Source: Desulfobacteraceae bacterium
GTDB lineage: Bacteria; Desulfobacterota; Desulfobacteria; Desulfobacterales; Desulfosalsimonadaceae
Assembly (NCBI GenBank): GCA_003599885.1
Contig: QZKW01000010.1
Coordinates: forward strand, 1 to 64,000
Direction of reading: 5' to 3'
DNA length: 64,000 nt
A program made the position numbers and the translations under genes. Shown here piece after piece: positions 16,411 through 39,108 of the stretch (position 1 is the stretch's first letter; every line of letters starts with the position of its first letter). The notes below the pieces were generated by a model, which was not told the DNA's origin, made no database searches, and worked only from the letters and a program-made list of their open reading frames with translations.

Positions 16411-16680
16411 ATGAATATACAGGATATTTTGACGGATATTCATTCACTTGAGGAAGAGCTGCTGGCTTTCGAGCGCAAATACGGTATCCGATCAGAAATA
16501 TTTTATGCAGCCTATGCATCCGGCGAAGAGCCCGAGAATGATCAGTGGATTTTGGACTTTGGCGAATGGGCAAGCGTTTACAGGACATGGCTGAGCCGTC
16601 AAGCGGACTATCGCAATGAACTTGAAAAGTTTCGAAAATCGCCAAATAGCCTGAGAGGACTGGTAAGCGTCGCGGCATGA
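16411..16680 (+). CDS. TumA-like antitoxin
   Basis: This 89-residue acidic, helical protein has a coiled-coil-prone N-terminus (SLEEELLAFERKYGIRSEIF) and a YASGEEPEND...FGEWASVYRTW block typical of small partners encoded directly before TumE-type (DUF6516) toxins. Its last four bases overlap the start of the toxin gene (ATGA), standard for type II modules. Identification rests mainly on pairing with the DUF6516 gene; the sequence alone is not diagnostic. It starts 12 bases after the bifunctional-nuclease gene and so is embedded in that transcript. Confidence 0.7.
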   Translation: MNIQDILTDIHSLEEELLAFERKYGIRSEIFYAAYASGEEPENDQWILDFGEWASVYRTWLSRQADYRNELEKFRKSPNSLRGLVSVAA

Positions 16681-17102
16681 TGAACGATTTAAGGACTCCC
16701 GAGGATTATGAATTTTTTTTGTATACGTTGACGGAACGTTTTCCGTCTGTCCGCCGTTCTACACTCACCTTCGTCAGGAAAGGCATGTCGCTTGCACGGG
16801 TGGCGGGCGAAGTGTTTTTTGAAAACGGAATCCGATTGGTTGTTCGCGAGCGTATCGTCTATAATCGTTTGCCGGCGGTGATAGATTGGTATGGTTATGA
16901 AGTGTGGCATGAAAATGAAAAATTGTATTGGTATGATTCACAGCCGCACCCAGATGATCCTGTGCTTCAAAGTACTCATCCTCATCATAAACATATACCG
17001 CCCAATATGAAACATCATCGGGTTCCAGCGCCAGGCATGAGTTTTACAAGTGCAAACCTGCCTTTACTCATTGAAGAAATTGAAAGAAAGCCACATCCAT
17101 GA
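16677..17102 (+). CDS. TumE-like toxin, DUF6516 family
   Basis: This 141-residue protein carries the TumE/DUF6516 pattern: a beta-rich N-terminal half (REFSxx-like strands ending RERIVYNRLPAVIDWYGYEVW), a Trp/Tyr strand EKLYWYDSQPHP, then the His-rich stretch STHPHHKHIPPNMKHH and RVPAPGMSF near the C-terminus. Such proteins are annotated as toxins of TumE-TumA modules. Toxicity and target in this organism are unproved. It overlaps both its presumed antitoxin and the downstream PHP gene by 4 bases, so the pair sits inside an otherwise continuous operon. Confidence 0.75.
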   Translation: MMNDLRTPEDYEFFLYTLTERFPSVRRSTLTFVRKGMSLARVAGEVFFENGIRLVVRERIVYNRLPAVIDWYGYEVWHENEKLYWYDSQPHPDDPVLQSTHPHHKHIPPNMKHHRVPAPGMSFTSANLPLLIEEIERKPHP

Positions 17103-17764: not shown

Positions 17765-17774
17765 AAATAAAAAC

Positions 17775-17780
17775 TTGACA
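17775..17780 (+). promoter_or_regulatory. candidate -35 element of the aromatic operon
   Basis: A perfect TTGACA lies about 95 bases before the leader-peptide start. No good -10 match is found at 16-18 bases, so the promoter call is weak. It is listed because a promoter between the PHP gene and the leader peptide is required if the attenuator controls the operon. Confidence 0.3.
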
Positions 17781-17874
17781 TTCTTTGATCAATCGTGGAA
17801 ATTAGCGACCGAATCACAAACAATGTTCCGCTTGTTTTATAAATTATCTGTCACAAAAGAGAATATCCGATAAA

Positions 17875-17958
17875 ATGAACCGCACCGCAGGCAAAAACTT
17901 TAATTTTTGGTATTTTAGCTATTATTATTTTAGCAAGGGACTGCCTGTGCGTAAGTAA
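17875..17958 (+). CDS. aromatic amino-acid leader peptide of the attenuator
   Basis: A 27-codon open frame starts at ATG 17875 and stops at TAA 17956-17958. Residues 9-19 read FNFWYFSYYYF: four Phe, four Tyr and one Trp, so 9 of 11 consecutive codons are aromatic. Rest of the peptide is unremarkable (N-terminal basic, C-terminal GLPVRK). This is the composition expected of a ribosome-stalling leader, as in the classical phe, trp and his operons, and it lies immediately before the aromatic operon and an intrinsic terminator. Only AGAG at a long distance resembles a Shine-Dalgarno. The codon pattern is direct observation; its role as sensor is inferred from the overlapping RNA pairings. Confidence 0.85.
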   Translation: MNRTAGKNFNFWYFSYYYFSKGLPVRK

Positions 17959-17995
17959 GACTTTATCTAAAAGAACCAAAAACCGCAGGCAGCCC
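17881..17995 (+). promoter_or_regulatory. alternative pairings 1:2 and 2:3 of the aromatic attenuator
   Basis: Region 1, CGCAccgCAGGCA (17881-17893), can pair with region 2, TGCCTGTGCG (17942-17951), using all ten bases of region 2 with a three-base bulge. Region 2, extended as GGGaCTGCCTG (17937-17947), can instead pair with CAGGCAGCCC (17986-17995), 10 bp with one bulged A. That second pairing consumes the 5' arm of the terminator (17981-17990), so antiterminator and terminator exclude each other. A ribosome stalled on the aromatic codons (17899-17931) would mask region 1 and favour the antiterminator; one reaching the stop codon would mask region 2 and favour termination. Confidence 0.8.
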
Positions 17996-18017
17996 CGAAA
18001 GCCTGCGGTTTTTTTTT
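17981..18017 (+). terminator. intrinsic terminator of the attenuator
   Basis: AACCGCAGGC (17981-17990) and GCCTGCGGTT (18001-18010) form a perfect 10-bp stem with a 10-base loop, followed by an uninterrupted run of T ending at 18017. It lies after the leader peptide and 70 bases before the first structural gene. Confidence 0.92.
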
Positions 18018-18020
18018 GTA

Positions 18021-18053
18021 AAAAAGCCGTGAAAAAGTATCACGGCTTTTTTT
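18021..18053 (+). terminator. second, tandem hairpin-terminator in the leader
   Basis: AAAAAGCCGTGA (18021-18032) and TCACGGCTTTTT (18040-18051) form a perfect 12-bp stem with a 7-base loop and a T-rich 3' side. It stands only 35 bases before the start of the first gene. How transcription passes it is not explained by the leader-peptide model. Confidence 0.85.
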
Positions 18054-18087
18054 ATTTTTAACGCCTAAATTTTAAGGGAGAAGGAAA

Positions 18088-18885
18088 ATGACAATTATCG
18101 GCAAACACATTCGCATGGAACGCATCATGGACCGGAACACCGGACGGACACTGATTGTGCCCCTGGATCATGGGGTTTCCGTGGGCCCGATTGACGGCAT
18201 CATCGATATCAAGGAAACCGTCGCCCAGATCGCCGAAGGCGGCGCCAACGCCATTGTCGAGCATAAGGGACTGGTCGGTGCCGGCCACCGCGGGCGCGGG
18301 TCGGATATCGGCCTAATCGTTCATTTGTCCGCATCCACGTCGCTGTCCGTCTATCCCCATTCCAAAACCCTGGTCTGCAGTGTTGAAGAAGCGTTAAAAC
18401 TGGGAGCGGACGCCGTATCCATTCACGTGAATATCGGCAATGGCCAGGAAAAGGAAATGCTCAATGATTTTGGACGGGTATCCTATGAATCCCGCAACTG
18501 GGGCATTCCACTTTTGGCCATGATGTATCCCAGAGGAGAAAAAATCAAAGACGAGTATGATGTGGAAGTCGTCAAACATGCCGCACGGGTGGGTTGCGAA
18601 ATGGGCGCTGATATTGTAAAGGTGTCCTATACCGGATCACCCGAATCCTTCGCTAAAGTGGTCGAAGGCTGCACCGTCCCGGTGGTGATTGCCGGAGGCG
18701 CAAAAATGGATTCGGACAGGGATATTCTGGAAATGGTCAAGGGCTCTATTGATGCCGGCGGGTCCGGTGTTTCCATTGGCCGGAACGTATTCCAGCACAA
18801 AAATCCCACCCGCATGGTTCAGGCCATGGCGTCCATTCTTTTCGATAACGGGTCGGTCACAGACGCACTTAAAATGCTTGAATAA
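18088..18885 (+). CDS. aroA': 2-amino-3,7-dideoxy-D-threo-hept-6-ulosonate synthase
   Basis: This 265-residue class I aldolase (DhnA/FbaB-like) makes ADTH, the first intermediate of the archaeal-type route to 3-dehydroquinate, replacing DAHP synthase. The start [17 protein letters not shown], the [10 protein letters not shown] loop, the Schiff-base Lys region DIVKVSYTG and the phosphate-binding [13 protein letters not shown] block support the call. GGAG-type ribosome-binding sequence precedes the ATG. The neighbouring 3-dehydroquinate synthase II is its pathway partner and makes fructose-bisphosphate aldolase function unlikely. It is the first gene behind the attenuator. Confidence 0.93.
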
Positions 18886-18908: not shown

Positions 18909-19901
18909 ATGCGTAAAATATGGGTAAAAATCGACCCCTGGGACAAGGACATGGTGACGACCGCTATCGAAGGCGGTGCGGACGGCGTGATGGTGCCGGA
19001 GGGCTATTCTGAAAAGGTAAAAGCATTGGGCCTTATCCAAACCATATCGGAAGATGGCGATTTAAAACCGGGCCAGGATGTGGTGACCTTTAAAATCTCC
19101 GGCAGCAGTGATGAAGCGGAAATTTCCCGGCTGTGCCGGGAAAAAAAGGTGATTCTGGAATGCACGGACTGGTCCATCATTCCCCTTGAAAATCTGATTG
19201 CTCAGGGTGCTGGCGTCATTGCCCAGGTGAACAGCCTGGAAGAAGCGCAAACTGCGTTCGGTATTCTTGAAAAAGGGGTGGAGCACATCCTTTTTTGCCC
19301 CAAAAACCCTCTTGAACTCAAGGAAGCCCTTGACCGGCTGCAATCCAACACGGACCACATCCCTCTGGAAGTTGCAGAGATCATTGAAATAAAACCTGTG
19401 GGAATGGGCGACCGGGTGTGTGTGGACACCTGCACCGATATGAAAATGGGGGAGGGTATGCTGGTGGGCAACGCCAGCAGCGCGCTGTTTCTGGTTCATG
19501 CGGAAAGTGTGGAAAACCCCTATGTCGCGCCCCGTCCTTTTCGGGTCAATGCCGGCGCAGTTCACGCCTATACAAGGGTGCCGGGTGGCAAAACCCGATA
19601 TCTTTCAGAATTATGCGCGGGTGATCCGGTGTTGATTACGGATTATAAAGGACGGGCTTCCATCGGCACCGTCGGACGGCTTAAAATTGAAAAGCGTCCG
19701 CTGATGCTGATCAAAGCAATGGTGGGCGGCAAAGAAATCACTTCCATTGTGCAAAATGCCGAAACCATCCGCCTGACAGACCCGGACGGCAATCCGGTGT
19801 CGGTGGTTGCGCTTCGTCCCGGGGACAAAGTGCTGGTGGCCCTGGAGGCAAGCGGTCGTCATTTCGGCATGAAAATAAGTGAAACCATCACGGAAAAATA
19901 A
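18909..19901 (+). CDS. aroB': 3-dehydroquinate synthase II
   Basis: This 330-residue enzyme oxidatively deaminates and cyclises ADTH to 3-dehydroquinate (MJ1249 type), unrelated to ordinary AroB. Family blocks include the N-terminal KIWVKIDPWDKDMVTTAIEGG, VEHILFCPKNP, GDRVCVDTC, FLVHAES, NAGAVHAY and the C-terminal GGKEITSIVQNAETIRL. It starts 23 bases after the synthase gene with a CTGGAG ribosome-binding site. The pair supplies the entry to the shikimate pathway, so the DAHP/AroB route is probably absent or redundant. Confidence 0.95.
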   Translation: MRKIWVKIDPWDKDMVTTAIEGGADGVMVPEGYSEKVKALGLIQTISEDGDLKPGQDVVTFKISGSSDEAEISRLCREKKVILECTDWSIIPLENLIAQGAGVIAQVNSLEEAQTAFGILEKGVEHILFCPKNPLELKEALDRLQSNTDHIPLEVAEIIEIKPVGMGDRVCVDTCTDMKMGEGMLVGNASSALFLVHAESVENPYVAPRPFRVNAGAVHAYTRVPGGKTRYLSELCAGDPVLITDYKGRASIGTVGRLKIEKRPLMLIKAMVGGKEITSIVQNAETIRLTDPDGNPVSVVALRPGDKVLVALEASGRHFGMKISETITEK

Positions 19902-19921: not shown

Positions 19922-21019
19922 ATGGATGAGCCCAAAAATAACCCGGCGGATATTCGTATGAATCATCTGCGCCAAACCATCAACGGAATTGATGAGACGG
20001 TGTTAAGCCTGATCAACAAGCGCTTGCTGGTCGCAAAGGAAATCGGGGAAATTAAAAAAGAACAAAACACTTATGTGTATGATAAAATTCGAGAAAATGA
20101 AATCATGGACCGGCTGGCCCAGTTAAACACCGGCCCGCTAAAAGCTCAGGCCCTCCATCAGATCTTTACGAATATCATTTCCGCATCCAGGGAAATCCAG
20201 ACGCCGACGACCATCTCCTACCTTGGCCCGGAGGCCACCTTCACCCATGTGGCAGCCATGGACCTGTTTGGTCATTCGGCCGAGTATGTGCCCCAAACCA
20301 GTATTCGGGATGTGTTTATGGAAGTCGCCAAGGGCAAATGCGATTACGGGGTGGCCCCTGTGGAAAATTCCATCGAAGGGGCCATCAATCATACACTGGA
20401 TTTGTTTTTCGAATCGGATTTACGCATCTGCGCGGAAAAATATCTTAATATTTCCCACGCCCTCTTGTCCCGATCCAGTGACATCAAGGATATTGAGGTG
20501 ATTTATTCACACCCCCAGCCGTTTGCGCAGTGCCGGGCGTGGATTCGGAAGAACCTTCCCAATGCAGCGCTGATTGATTGCAACAGTACGGCCCACGCTG
20601 CCCAGAAGGCGTTTCAGGAAAAAAATACCGCCGCCATCGCTAATTCTGAAGCCGCGCACATATACGGGCTTCAGATTCTTGAATCCGGCATAGAGGATTA
20701 TTCCCATAACATCACGCGGTTTCTCTTGGTGGGCCGAGATGAACCCCGACCCACCGGGGAGGATAAAACATCCATCATGTTTGCGATTTCCCATGTGCCG
20801 GGAGCGCTCTATAAAATCCTGCAGCCCATCGCCGATTCCGGCATAAACATGTCCAAACTCGAATCCCGGCCTACCAAGCATGAAAACTGGAGCTATTTCT
20901 TTTTTGTGGATTTTGACGGGCATATCGAAGATGATACAATCAAGCGAACCATTGAACAAATGAAGCCGTATTGTAAATACCTTAAATGGCTGGGTTCCTA
21001 TCCGAGAGCGCAAGAGTAA
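19922..21019 (+). CDS. pheA: bifunctional chorismate mutase / prephenate dehydratase
   Basis: This 365-residue P-protein converts chorismate to phenylpyruvate for Phe synthesis. Residues ~10-90 are an AroQ chorismate mutase (INGIDETVLSLINKRLLVAKEIGEIK). Residues ~97-275 are the dehydratase, with SYLGPEATFTHVAA, GVAPVENSIEGAINHTLD and the catalytic-region block NITRFLLVG. A C-terminal ACT domain follows (KTSIMFAISHVPGALYKIL, with ESRPTKHENWSYFFFVDF), the usual site of Phe feedback inhibition. It sits 20 bases after the dehydroquinate synthase gene. Phe control thus appears both allosteric and, via the leader, transcriptional. Confidence 0.96.
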   Translation: MDEPKNNPADIRMNHLRQTINGIDETVLSLINKRLLVAKEIGEIKKEQNTYVYDKIRENEIMDRLAQLNTGPLKAQALHQIFTNIISASREIQTPTTISYLGPEATFTHVAAMDLFGHSAEYVPQTSIRDVFMEVAKGKCDYGVAPVENSIEGAINHTLDLFFESDLRICAEKYLNISHALLSRSSDIKDIEVIYSHPQPFAQCRAWIRKNLPNAALIDCNSTAHAAQKAFQEKNTAAIANSEAAHIYGLQILESGIEDYSHNITRFLLVGRDEPRPTGEDKTSIMFAISHVPGALYKILQPIADSGINMSKLESRPTKHENWSYFFFVDFDGHIEDDTIKRTIEQMKPYCKYLKWLGSYPRAQE

Positions 21020-21067: not shown

Positions 21068-22342
21068 ATGCTGAAAATTATACCAGGCAATATCCGCAAT
21101 ACCACGGTCACTGTGCCGGGCTCAAAAAGCTATACCCATCGGACGTTCATCGCTGCCGCCTTATCGGACGGGGAGTGCCGGATCGACAACTGGCTGGATA
21201 GTGAAGACACCCGGTATACTTTGGATGCGTTATCCAGATTTGGAGCGAAAATTGAAAAAAGGCCGGCCGGGCTTTCTGTTTATGGCCGAAGTGGTGGCAT
21301 GGATGCCTGCGATTCCCAAATATACATTGGAAATTCAGGCACCTCCATGCGTCTTCTCACATCCTATGCCATTCTTGGCAAAGGCCGCTATGTTCTCAGC
21401 GGGACTGACCGCATGCATGAACGGCCGATTCAGCATTTGCTTGACGCCCTGCACCAAATAGGGGTTCATGCCGTATCCCTGAACCATGACGGGTGTCCGC
21501 CGCTGGAAATCATGGGCGGCAAAATCGCCGGAGGAGAGGTGCGCATCAATTGCAGCATCAGCAGCCAGTTCCTATCCGGACTGCTTCTCATCGCTCCATA
21601 CACCGAAAAAGGCCTTAAAATCCATGTCACTCATGGCCCGGTGTCAAGGCCCTATATTGATATGACCGTTGATATTATGTCGCAATTCGGAGTTCCGGTT
21701 GTCAGGGACGGTTATGATTATTTTGAAATCGCCGGAGACCGGCACTATCAATCCGGTCATTATACCGTGGAGCCCGATGCTTCCCAGGCCGGTTATTTCT
21801 GGGCGGCAGCGGCCATCACCGGCGCCAGAATCAAGGTGGCTGGCATCACCGGAAACTCCAGTCAGGGCGATGTCCGTTTCGCTGAGGTGCTGGGTCAAAT
21901 GGGCTGCAATGTCACGCATGAGCCTGACGGCATCTCGGTGACAGGCGGGAACCTTTCCGGGATTGAAGTGGATATGGCCGACATGCCTGATATTGTCCCG
22001 ACCCTTGCCGTAGTCGCCGCGTTCGCCAAGGGAACCACGAAAATCAAAAACGTGGCCCACCTGAAGGTCAAGGAAAGCGACCGCCTGACTGCCGTGATCA
22101 ATGAACTCACCAAAATGGGCATTTCCGCAAGATCGGACCATGATGACCTGATCGTTACCGGCGGCAGTCCCCACGGCGCAGTGATAGAAACATACAATGA
22201 CCACCGGATGGCCATGTGTTTTGCCATCGCGGGACTTGTGGTGCCGGGAATTGAAATACTCAATGAAGGATGTGTTGGGAAATCATTCCCTGCGTTCTGG
22301 GAAGTGTTTGAAGGCTTGAGGGAGAATTACTATGTCAGGTAA
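21068..22342 (+). CDS. aroA: 3-phosphoshikimate 1-carboxyvinyltransferase (EPSP synthase)
   Basis: This 424-residue EPSP synthase joins PEP to shikimate-3-phosphate. Visible motifs are the N-terminal VPGSKSYTHR, the PEP-binding GNSGTSMRLL, SSQFLSGLLL, the PDASQAGYFWAAAA region, LKVKESDRL, and the C-terminal YNDHRMAMCFA. In GNSGTSMR the position corresponding to Gly96 of the E. coli enzyme cannot be aligned with certainty by eye. The gene follows pheA by 48 bases and overlaps aroC by 11 bases. Confidence 0.96.
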   Translation: MLKIIPGNIRNTTVTVPGSKSYTHRTFIAAALSDGECRIDNWLDSEDTRYTLDALSRFGAKIEKRPAGLSVYGRSGGMDACDSQIYIGNSGTSMRLLTSYAILGKGRYVLSGTDRMHERPIQHLLDALHQIGVHAVSLNHDGCPPLEIMGGKIAGGEVRINCSISSQFLSGLLLIAPYTEKGLKIHVTHGPVSRPYIDMTVDIMSQFGVPVVRDGYDYFEIAGDRHYQSGHYTVEPDASQAGYFWAAAAITGARIKVAGITGNSSQGDVRFAEVLGQMGCNVTHEPDGISVTGGNLSGIEVDMADMPDIVPTLAVVAAFAKGTTKIKNVAHLKVKESDRLTAVINELTKMGISARSDHDDLIVTGGSPHGAVIETYNDHRMAMCFAIAGLVVPGIEILNEGCVGKSFPAFWEVFEGLRENYYVR

Positions 22343-23387
22343 TACATTTGGCACATTGTTCCGAATCACCACCTGGGGCGAATCCCACGGACCTGCCGTC
22401 GGGGTGGTCGTGGATGGCTGCCCCTCAAAAATTTCCATGGATGAATCCACCATTCAGGCATGGCTTGACCGCCGTCGGCCGGGACAGGCCGCAACCTCCA
22501 CATCACGAAAAGAATCAGACACTGCCAAAATCCTTTCCGGCGTGTTTGAAGGCAAAACCACCGGCACCCCCATCATGATCATGGTGGAAAACCAGGACGC
22601 GAAATCTTCGGCTTACAGTTCTATCGCGGATGTTTTCCGGCCGGGACATGGGGATTTTACCTATCAGGCCAAATACGGCATCCGCGACTGGCGCGGCGGG
22701 GGCAGGGCATCCGCCCGTGAAACCGTGGGCAGAGTCGCCGCCGGAGCTGTTGCAGACGCGGTTTTGGCAAAAGAAAACATCACGGTTTTGGCCCATACTG
22801 TTGCCCTTGGTTCCGTCACCGCCCAAACTTTTGACCCGGACTGTATCCGCCAAAATATGTTTCTATGTGCAGATAGTGACGCTGCCCGGAAAATGGAAAC
22901 GGAAGTGGCGGCAGTTAAAAAACAAGGCGATTCTTTGGGCGGCATTGTGGAAATTCGGGTGCAAAACGTTCCGGCAGGACTGGGTGAACCGGTTTTTGAT
23001 AAGCTCGATGCGGATCTGGCCAAAGCTTTAATGAGCATTGGCGCGGTCAAAGGGGTGGAAATCGGGGCAGGATTCAGGGCCGCCCAGCTCAAAGGATCTC
23101 AAAACAACGATCCGATCTCCCCTGAAGGATTCACTACAAACAACGCGGGCGGGATTCTTGCGGGCATATCAAGCGGTGATGAAATTATTGTCCGCGTGGC
23201 GGTCAAACCCATCCCGTCCATCAGCATGGAGCAGACCACCATCGACACCCGCAGCAACCCCACCCGAATCAAAATCCAGGGCAGGCATGATATTTGCGCC
23301 ATTCCCCGCATCAACGTGGTCTGCGAAGCCATGGTCAGCCTGGTAATTGCGGATCATTTGCTGAGGCAGCGGGCGACAGGCGGGTAA
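22332..23387 (+). CDS. aroC: chorismate synthase
   Basis: This 351-residue FMN-dependent lyase converts EPSP to chorismate. Its signature blocks are present: GESHGPAVGVVVDGCP near the N-terminus, RRPGQAATSTSRKE, GHGDFTYQAKYGIRDWRGGGRASARETVGRVAAG split by the FMN/substrate contacts, and FTTNNAGGILAGISSG. Length is normal. It is the last gene of the operon and overlaps aroA by 11 bases. Genes for dehydroquinate dehydratase, shikimate dehydrogenase and shikimate kinase are not in the window. Confidence 0.97.
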   Translation: MSGNTFGTLFRITTWGESHGPAVGVVVDGCPSKISMDESTIQAWLDRRRPGQAATSTSRKESDTAKILSGVFEGKTTGTPIMIMVENQDAKSSAYSSIADVFRPGHGDFTYQAKYGIRDWRGGGRASARETVGRVAAGAVADAVLAKENITVLAHTVALGSVTAQTFDPDCIRQNMFLCADSDAARKMETEVAAVKKQGDSLGGIVEIRVQNVPAGLGEPVFDKLDADLAKALMSIGAVKGVEIGAGFRAAQLKGSQNNDPISPEGFTTNNAGGILAGISSGDEIIVRVAVKPIPSISMEQTTIDTRSNPTRIKIQGRHDICAIPRINVVCEAMVSLVIADHLLRQRATGG

Positions 23388-27269: not shown

Positions 27270-27295
27270 GTGTGCCGGATTTTCTTCCGGCACAC
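27270..27295 (+). terminator. hairpin after pilA
   Basis: GTGTGCCGGA (27270-27279) pairs perfectly with TCCGGCACAC (27286-27295). There is little T-tract, so it may stabilise the pilin mRNA 3' end instead of terminating alone. Confidence 0.65.
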
Positions 27296-27334
27296 TGCTT
27301 GAAAATCTGCTGATGAAAAAGCAATACCAATCAG

Positions 27335-27376
27335 AAAAAAGAAGGAGAGGCGAGAAAATCCCTCTCCTTCTTTTTT
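27335..27376 (+). terminator. strong intrinsic terminator after pilA
   Basis: AAAAAAGAAGGAGAGG (27335-27350) and CCTCTCCTTCTTTTTT (27361-27376) form a perfect 16-bp stem with a 10-base loop, ending in six T. It separates pilA from the following membrane-protein gene. Confidence 0.92.
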
Positions 27377-27495
27377 GGGTGGTTGACAATAATAAGTGGA
27401 TGCTCAAAACACCCATCAAATAGCGCTTATCTGCCGGATAATTGGAATTGGCGGCGTTACATCAGGCATTGCAAAAAAGACGGCGAAGGGATTCG

Positions 27496-38155: not shown

Positions 38156-38869
38156 ATGCACATACAATCCAAGCAATGGAAAAAATCGTTATCCGCTTTA
38201 TGCATTTCTTTTGATTTGCCTTTCTGCCAAACGCTATTAGACTGCTTGGCTTTATACGCAACAGAACTATTGGCCTGGAATGAAAAAACCAACCTGACTT
38301 CCATCACGGAAGCATCGGAAGTAGCTGAAAAGCACATGCTCGATTCCTTGATTCCCGGAAAATATATTCAATCCGAATTATCCGGTTCCGAAATTTCTCT
38401 GCTGGATATTGGCAGCGGGGGAGGGTTTCCTGGGATTCCGTTAAAAATTTTTCTTCCGCACCTTCATGTGACCATGATTGACAGTGTGAGGAAAAAGGTC
38501 AATTTTTTAAAATATGTCATCCGGACTCTGAACCTTAATGGCATCGACGCCATTCATACAAGAGTCGAAGACTTGGCCGGTCAGAAAGATTTCGCCGGGC
38601 AATTTGATGTGGTGATCAGCCGGGCCTTTACCTCCCTTGAACGATTTCTAGCGCTGGCCATCCCGTTTATTAAACCGGATGGAATGATCATCGCCATGAA
38701 AGGGAAGGATGCCCAAACAGAGCTGGATAAAATGATATCCCAAAAAATCGGGCCGGAGCGTTATCAAATCAATAACCATCAAATCGCCGTTCACATGGAA
38801 TATTATACGCTGCCCACTTCGGGCAGTGCCCGGGCGCTCGTGATTGCAAAAAAGTCATCAACAGACTGA
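38156..38869 (+). CDS. rsmG: 16S rRNA (guanine-527-N7)-methyltransferase
   Basis: RsmG (GidB) methylates G527 of 16S rRNA using S-adenosylmethionine. The 237-residue protein has the family's WNEKTNLTSI motif, the SAM-binding LLDIGSGGGFPGIPL, and KVNFLKYV, VEDLAG and VISRAFTSL blocks. Length is slightly above the usual ~210 residues, owing to an N-terminal extension. It follows the WlbA-like gene by 28 bases but is unrelated to glycan synthesis. Confidence 0.94.
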   Translation: MHIQSKQWKKSLSALCISFDLPFCQTLLDCLALYATELLAWNEKTNLTSITEASEVAEKHMLDSLIPGKYIQSELSGSEISLLDIGSGGGFPGIPLKIFLPHLHVTMIDSVRKKVNFLKYVIRTLNLNGIDAIHTRVEDLAGQKDFAGQFDVVISRAFTSLERFLALAIPFIKPDGMIIAMKGKDAQTELDKMISQKIGPERYQINNHQIAVHMEYYTLPTSGSARALVIAKKSSTD

Positions 38870-38910
38870 CTTTAAATTATGACAAAGGCCGGGAACCAAG
38901 GAATTATTCC

Positions 38911-38939
38911 TTGACATTTACCCCCTGCCTTTCTATGAG
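38911..38939 (+). promoter_or_regulatory. sigma-70-type promoter of the B12 operon
   Basis: TTGACA (38911-38916), a 17-base spacer and TATGAG (38934-38939) stand just before the riboswitch. Confidence 0.75.
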
Positions 38940-38949
38940 TGATACAAAT

Positions 38950-39108
38950 TGTTCAAGTGCTTTTAAAAGCACAATAGGGAATCCCGTGAAAATCGGGAAC
39001 GGGCCCGCCGCTGTAATTGGGGATGAACGCCGCTTAAAGCCACTGCTGAAATTTGCGGGAAGGCGCGGTCAGTAAAGTGATCCAAAAGTCAGAAGACCTG
39101 CTTGAACA
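38950..39108 (+). ncRNA. cobalamin riboswitch
   Basis: The closing stem pairs TGTTCAAG (38950-38957) with CTTGAACA (39101-39108). Inside are the expected conserved elements in order: GGGAATCCCGTG...CGGGAACGGGCCCGC, the GCCGCTGTAA core, GCCACTG, GGGAAGGCGCGG and the B12 box AAGTCAGAAGACCTGC. It controls the downstream secreted protein, BtuB-like receptor and second secreted protein, shutting them off when adenosylcobalamin or another cobalamin is plentiful. Confidence 0.95.

Follow-up and report, generated by a model that had tools for sequence, protein, structure and literature searches.

A short leader reading frame rich in phenylalanine, tyrosine and tryptophan codons, interleaved with mutually exclusive RNA pairings, precedes a five-gene shikimate operon in the window, as we call the whole 64,000-nucleotide stretch of DNA analyzed here. 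The aromatic leader and its pairings are real and lie far above the chance level. Judged from the sequence, the operon is very likely controlled by them as a transcription attenuator of the trp/phe type, with the ribosome as mediator. Because the same arrangement is kept in many sulfate-reducing bacteria and their relatives, it is very probably a pathway switch, which would turn the shikimate pathway on when Phe, Tyr or Trp is short.

Leader, pairing regions and genes in the window

The features described in this section lie on the forward strand. Direct reading places the leader ORF (MNRTAGKNFNFWYFSYYYFSKGLPVRK, stop included) at 17875–17958, from the ATG at 17875 to the TAA at 17958; its aromatic run, FNFWYFSYYYF (17899–17931), holds four Phe, four Tyr and one Trp among 11 codons. 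A 27-codon frame with this run was part of the original prediction, and its coordinates and codon count held on re-reading. Nine aromatic codons out of 11 were reached by 0 of 1000 dinucleotide shuffles of positions 17765–18087, and at least six out of 11 by 33 of 1000.

Six pairing regions were delineated. Region 1 (17881–17893) pairs with region 2 (17937–17951), which encodes the leader end GLPVR and can pair with region 3 instead; region 3 (17981–17995), defined by pairing and co-variation, pairs with region 2 or 4, and region 4 (18001–18010) with region 3 or 5. The places predicted for regions 1–4 and their 1:2, 2:3 and 3:4 pairings were borne out by direct reading, as was the claim of a perfect 10-bp terminator with a T-tract: 17981–17990 pairs fully with 18001–18010, and a T-run follows. 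The hairpin of this terminator, T1 (17981–18017), has an energy of −18.6 kcal/mol. Absent from the original prediction was a second, terminator-like hairpin of 13 pairs, T2 (18020–18052), predicted from the sequence, with region 5 (18020–18032) as its 5′ arm and region 6 (18040–18052), followed by a T-run, as its 3′ arm; it ends 35 nt before the start of the ADTH synthase gene. The folding z-score of the element is −3.66. Folded without constraints, the window element adopts a minimum-energy structure in which 2:3 is enclosed by a pairing of regions 1 and 4; this 1:4 pairing has no own-locus preference among relatives. A search of the window against Rfam returned no family at its gathering score; weak hits, among them Phe_leader (RF01859) with 20.4 bits where 55 is the gathering score, were set aside.

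The operon itself was predicted to encode ADTH synthase, dehydroquinate synthase II, pheA, aroA and aroC, and NCBIfam matches above cut-off confirm this composition. The genes are those of ADTH synthase (2-amino-3,7-dideoxy-D-threo-hept-6-ulosonate synthase; 18088–18885; TIGR01949, 361 bits, cut-off 299), 3-dehydroquinate synthase II (18909–19901; NF002627, 494.7 bits, cut-off 392), chorismate mutase/prephenate dehydratase (pheA; 19922–21019; NF008865, 295.9 bits, cut-off 219), aroA (21068–22342; TIGR01356, 446 bits) and aroC (22332–23387; TIGR00033, 433 bits). The N-terminal chorismate mutase match of pheA (TIGR01807) scores 59.5 bits, under its cut-off of 69.55. Elsewhere in the same genome, trpE has its own WWW leader, MDQNKTDKNQNWWWRAYIMEPAGG, with two hairpins (L157, G000:C71), and the best frame upstream of a second ADTH synthase gene and of a Bsub-type DAHP synthase gene has 3 of 11 aromatic codons; the aromatic leader thus marks the pathway operon. 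The protein encoded at 16677–17102, beside the PHP-family gene that precedes the leader, weakly matches the TumE toxin family (20.4 bits; cut-off, 90).

Conservation and co-variation among relatives

Loci were gathered by protein similarity of dehydroquinate synthase II only: 30 from near relatives, the best 80 named ones of a capped list and 16 more from the class, 126 together. Removal of seven without an ADTH synthase (aldolase) gene in reach and of seven with short upstream sequence left 112 testable loci, which include copies of the same genome (L004 and L031, for example). The named loci are labeled mostly as Desulfobacterales or Desulfobacteraceae, others as plain Deltaproteobacteria, Proteobacteria or Thermodesulfobacteriota, and include Desulfonema magnum, Desulfoluna and Desulfobacca. 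An aromatic leader, defined by at least 6 of 11 aromatic codons within 700 nt, precedes the ADTH synthase gene at 105 of the 112. By this cut-off seven loci have none, one of which, L104 (Desulfobacca), carries a frame that resembles the one at L105 and has 5 aromatic codons out of 11. When 450 nt were searched, at least 7 of 11 aromatic codons were found at 101/112 loci, against 4/112 on the reverse strand and 8/1120 shuffles; the looser cut-off of 6 of 11 gave 104/112 loci against 22/112 and 48/1120, respectively.

Sixty-eight of the 105 loci were aligned after removal of L110 and near-duplicates, and L011, L016 and L089 were left out of the tests that depend on T2, which therefore comprise 65. 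Across the 68 loci, standard pairs occupy 83.4% of the 543 cells of 1:2, 92.3% of the 2:3 core, 94.4% of 3:4, 95.4% of the main 5:6 helix and 90.1% of 4:5; a proposed inner 2:3 helix is only 54.5% paired. For 1:2, 2:3, 3:4 with 5:6, and 4:5, both the paired percentage and the covariation score exceeded 500 of 500 shuffles and every slid register. Under a stricter count that requires changes on both sides, the observed value was matched by 27 of 500 shuffles for 1:2 and by 16 of 500 for 4:5. T2 keeps at least seven of nine core pairs at 64/68 loci, and two terminators follow the leader at 56/68 of this main set, the same finder being used throughout. The distance from the second hairpin to the structural gene has a median of 40 nt, with the middle half at 29–55 nt and one tenth above 106 nt. 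At L003, L004 and L008, about 150 extra bases relative to the window separate T2 from the ADTH synthase gene, still inside the gap between leader and gene.

In an own-versus-cross test, the pairing energy of the two arms of each locus was compared with that of arms dealt across loci. The z-scores over 65 loci were −7.8 for 1:2, −5.4 for 2:3, −10.7 for 3:4, −7.2 for 4:5 and −10.1 for 5:6, and over the 24 loci less than 68% identical they were −5.1, −3.7, −6.5, −4.4 and −6.2, respectively, whereas the control pairings 3:6, 1:4 and 2:5 gave values between −0.8 and 1.7. Against the three nearest relatives, p was 0.0005 for 1:2, 0.019 for 2:3, 3e-5 for 3:4, 0.0004 for 4:5 (better in 45 loci, worse in 20) and 2e-6 for 5:6; the control pairings gave 0.54–0.89, with 3:6 better in 33 and worse in 32 (p 0.60). 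When each locus was set against its one closest relative only, the signal was weaker (4:5, p 0.02; 2:3, p 0.12). Tree-based independent pairs gave too few events for a verdict on any one site: among the sites listed, the best 4:5 one changed as expected in 2.7 of 3, and no coupling was detected at two other 4:5 sites (0.5 of 5 and 0.7 of 6) or at one 1:2 site (0.3 of 7 in the expected direction, 0.4 against). The check on relatives proposed with the original prediction has accordingly come out in its favor: the frame of the leader is conserved, as are the alternative stems, which co-vary.

Likeness between T1 and T2 that stems from duplication or base composition should make 3:6 locus-specific too, and the null result for 3:6 therefore matters. 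The co-variation of regions 4 and 5 indicates that 4:5 is probably selected. On the same ground, that own arms of 3:6 pair no better than dealt ones in the main set, we discarded the view that T2 arose by copying T1 and that conversion keeps the two similar.

A putative promoter of the window lies at 17775–17803 (forward strand), with a −35 box TTGACA (17775–17780), a weak −10 box GAAATT (17798–17803) and a spacer of 17, matching at 9 of 12 positions; matches of at least 9 of 12 are common by chance (97/340 shuffles). The TTGACA box, which the original prediction did not mention, stands 95–100 nt upstream of the leader start. TTGACA occurs upstream of the leader at 62/68 loci, compared with 2/68 on the reverse strand and 19/680 shuffles, and transcription probably begins ahead of the leader. 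Matches to a Shine-Dalgarno sequence in front of the leader are only mildly enriched (49/68 loci versus 138/340 shuffles).

Codon content and geometry of the leaders

Between regions 1 and 2, Phe and Tyr codons are found in all 68 leaders and Trp codons in 45. A wider count over the last 24 residues finds Trp in 48/68; on the tree, its presence changes 13 times over this stretch, and that of Phe and of Tyr never. The original description of the peptide as rich in all three aromatic residues is right for the window leader and does not carry over to all of its relatives: since Trp codons are not universal, sensing of all three amino acids suits the window, not every relative. The aromatic residues differ freely in order and number from one to the next of the 68 leaders.

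The aromatic run is placed between regions 1 and 2, with region 1 shortly before the aromatic codons and not overlapping them. Median distances to region 2 are 33 nt for the first Phe and the first Tyr codon and 21 nt for the first Trp codon, which lies at least 15 nt before region 2 in 43/45 leaders (range, 12 to 39 nt). At such distances a stalled ribosome should leave region 2 free; this geometry, taken together with established ribosome footprints, would put the stalled ribosome inside the 1:2 loop.

Leaders ahead of other shikimate entry genes and trpE

The 30 best-scoring loci were inspected for each of several gene families. Phylum-wide, ADTH synthase genes have an aromatic leader at 26/30 loci, versus 1/30 on the reverse strand, with two terminators after 6 of the 26. 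AroFGH-type DAHP synthase genes of the class likewise have one at 26/30 loci, and at two more a frame with 5 of 11 aromatic codons was found; two terminators follow 9 of these 26 leaders. For Bsub-type DAHP synthase genes of the phylum, an aromatic frame was found at 12/30 loci, compared with 2/30 on the reverse strand, and some of the 12 may be chance occurrences; six of the 12 are followed by two terminators. With two terminators at 56/68 loci of the main set against these lower proportions elsewhere, T2 is chiefly a trait of the wider kin of the window. The original prediction placed the leader before an archaeal-type shikimate operon; the leader is not particular to that variant of the pathway, as aromatic leaders also precede DAHP synthase genes of both types.

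The trpE set contains many leaders of the WWW type. A lax cut-off of two Trp codons is passed by 29/30 of its loci, several of whose frames (L213, L218, L226, L232) look like chance.

Proposed mechanism and possible role of the second hairpin

The features expected of an attenuator can be read from the sequence: a leader ORF with codons for products of the pathway, a predicted intrinsic terminator (3:4) before the genes, a 2:3 pairing that excludes 3:4, and a 1:2 pairing that excludes 2:3 and is placed where a ribosome would block it. From these we infer the steps of ribosome stalling, tRNA charging, termination and read-through as follows. With aromatic amino acids plentiful, the ribosome would reach the stop codon and cover region 2, 3:4 would form, and RNA polymerase would stop at T1. 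Without translation, 1:2 would form, and 3:4 would again terminate. A shortage of charged Phe-, Tyr- or Trp-tRNA would make the ribosome stall in the aromatic run and block 1:2, whereupon region 2 would pair with region 3, and T1 could not form. Region 4, thus freed, could pair with the 5′ arm of T2 (4:5), which probably keeps region 4 off region 3 and delays T2. This holding or delaying step is the weaker part of the scheme, since 4:5 is usually less stable than T2.

Predicted energies bear on the two halves of the scheme. The 2:3 pairing is more stable than 3:4 in 51/65 loci and should hold once formed, as its direct-path barrier has a median of 18 kcal/mol. The 5:6 hairpin is more stable than 4:5, also in 51/65 loci; for the passage from 4:5 to 5:6, the barrier amounts to 6.0 kcal/mol in the window and to a median of 8.7 overall. 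Median energies over the 65 loci were −40.4 for 2:3 with 4:5, −38.9 for 3:4 with 5:6 and −43.1 for the mixed state of 2:3 with 5:6, which is the lowest in 42/65. Given this mixed state and the barrier from 4:5 to 5:6, T2 might still terminate in cases where T1 fails to. The 4:5 pairing may only delay T2, or it may protect 2:3 by occupying region 4; that it switches both terminators is somewhat less likely than not.

Two readings of T2 compete. On one, the element is an ordinary four-region attenuator in which 4:5 has no function and T2 serves as a constitutive brake, a back-up terminator or a hairpin stabilizing the 5′ end. This has close to an even chance of being correct, given the stability of 5:6 over 4:5 and the low energy of the mixed state; moreover, two terminators are frequent in the main set, but much less so among the phylum-wide ADTH synthase and the AroFGH leaders, and switching therefore does not need T2. 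It leaves unaccounted for the co-variation of regions 4 and 5; duplication or base composition by itself should have made regions 3 and 6 co-vary as well, and these show no such signal. On the other reading, which we put forward tentatively, six regions and two terminators act like dominoes: the fed state would comprise 1:2, 3:4 and 5:6, with two serial stops, and in the starved state 2:3 and 4:5 would open both. The element would then be part of a phylum-wide multivalent Phe/Tyr/Trp leader found at whichever enzyme serves as the shikimate entry (ADTH synthase, AroFGH-type or Bsub-type DAHP synthase), the sensor staying with the step while the enzyme is replaced.

Two further explanations fare much worse. 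Nascent-peptide arrest of the TnaC or Erm type, in which a free metabolite would cause the aromatic peptide itself to stall the ribosome, might be read from the C-terminus GLPxVR or close variants of it, which recur in many ADTH synthase and AroFGH leaders; that conserved end, however, falls on region 2 and is explained by RNA pairing. Trp is missing from 23/68 leaders, its spacing to region 2 runs from 12 to 39 nt, and the aromatic residues are free in order and number, whereas TnaC-type arrest depends on critical residues that are fixed in identity and spacing, so that peptide arrest appears improbable. Less probable still is that the small ORF makes a functional hydrophobic micropeptide and that the hairpins merely terminate the upstream PHP-family gene in tandem. 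The peptide is indeed very hydrophobic, and that gene lies on the same strand, but 1:2 and 2:3 extend through the ORF and show co-variation with the arms downstream, and similar leaders stand before the shikimate entry gene in other genomes.

Relation to known attenuators

Little seems to have been described about how sulfate reducers control transcription for the shikimate pathway, or about such control of the ADTH route generally. The attenuators of pheA and pheST in E. coli have a Phe-rich leader, mutually exclusive 1:2, 2:3 and 3:4 stems and a single terminator; they differ from the window in carrying Phe codons only and in preceding a branch enzyme or synthetase gene. Those of ilvGMEDA and thr, also in E. 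coli, are multivalent, answering several end products of one pathway, and share this multivalence with the window leader, but their codons are different ones (branched-chain or Thr/Ile). An aroR-aroF attenuator was reportedly described in Corynebacterium glutamicum by Neshat in 2014. The original claim that attenuators usually sense one amino acid, with none described for this pathway variant, hence needs qualifying: multivalent attenuators are known, and so is a leader before a DAHP synthase gene in C. glutamicum.

The C. glutamicum system is the nearest described case, with a Phe-Tyr-Phe leader reported to answer Phe, not Tyr (PMC11802643, PMC4046766). As in the window, a leader with aromatic codons precedes the gene for the first step of the same pathway, there a DAHP synthase; unlike the window, it has Phe-Tyr-Phe only, belongs to another phylum and enzyme, and comes with no second terminator in the available description. 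The E. coli pheA and pheST leaders are also named in PMC11802643. The Salmonella his attenuator has more than four regions and an extra hairpin that reshapes the decision (PMC1183508); that hairpin precedes the terminator, whereas T2 of the window follows T1 and is itself terminator-like. The terms Desulfo-, aromatic, aroF and phenylalanine are absent from the main text of a survey of premature terminators (PMC2965389). In Desulfovibrio hydrothermalis, the homologous cluster of genes is reported to change together with pressure (PMC4162548); the terms attenuat-, leader and terminator are absent from the text of that paper. Among the open-licence papers listed by our searches, we saw none that reports the present element; absence there is weak evidence.

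The attenuator as proposed here predicts that one leader reads the end products of the pathway at its common entry step, and that branch operons such as trpE read one. E. coli reaches a comparable logic with repressors and isoenzymes. The second hairpin provides a clean test of whether antitermination passes from one terminator to the next.

Model search and leaders of further genes

A covariance model spanning region 2 to T2 was built from 48 sequences out of 63 candidates, which left out L011, L016, L088, L089 and L105. It matched 252 of 395 genomes across the phylum. These matches were not counted as attenuators, and we judge many of those below about 55 bits to be generic neighboring terminators; two weak matches within the window, at 27289–27386 (forward strand, 20.6 bits) and 38847–38990 (reverse strand, 19.6 bits), are perhaps of this ordinary kind. 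An aromatic or Trp leader is present at 30/30 loci taken by the model, and the downstream gene family was checked for nine of them and for eight further loci. As the 30 were chosen by a two-hairpin model, their two hairpins are no evidence; the searches by gene family are the unpicked tests. An alignment of leaders of other genes (A4) started from 37 rows, from which five low-scoring second matches were dropped, and 24 of the remaining 32 were kept after removal of near-duplicates. In these leaders 4:5 reached a z-score of −5.4, yet the control 3:6 also reached −5.1.

Several loci found by the model precede genes outside the shikimate pathway. Two Phe/Tyr-rich leaders, MIVQFFYFSYFNLYGRFFFRESIHGMAR (L159, G058:C104) and MSGLYFYFYFTRSAREMAR (L167, G069:C81), stand before genes for PaaK-like phenylacetate-CoA ligases, whose matches of 627 and 640 bits, respectively, fall slightly under the cut-off of 646; they suggest aromatic attenuation of phenylacetate use or aromatic acid assimilation. 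Aromatic-rich frames also precede the genes for two transporter-like substrate-binding proteins, one with a weak branched-chain-type match (L168; 79.6 bits, cut-off 477) and one with no family match at 1e-20 (L171), possibly linked to aromatic amino acid uptake. At L169 (G495:C30), a VVVV leader with the same two-hairpin layout precedes the gene for the acetolactate synthase large subunit.
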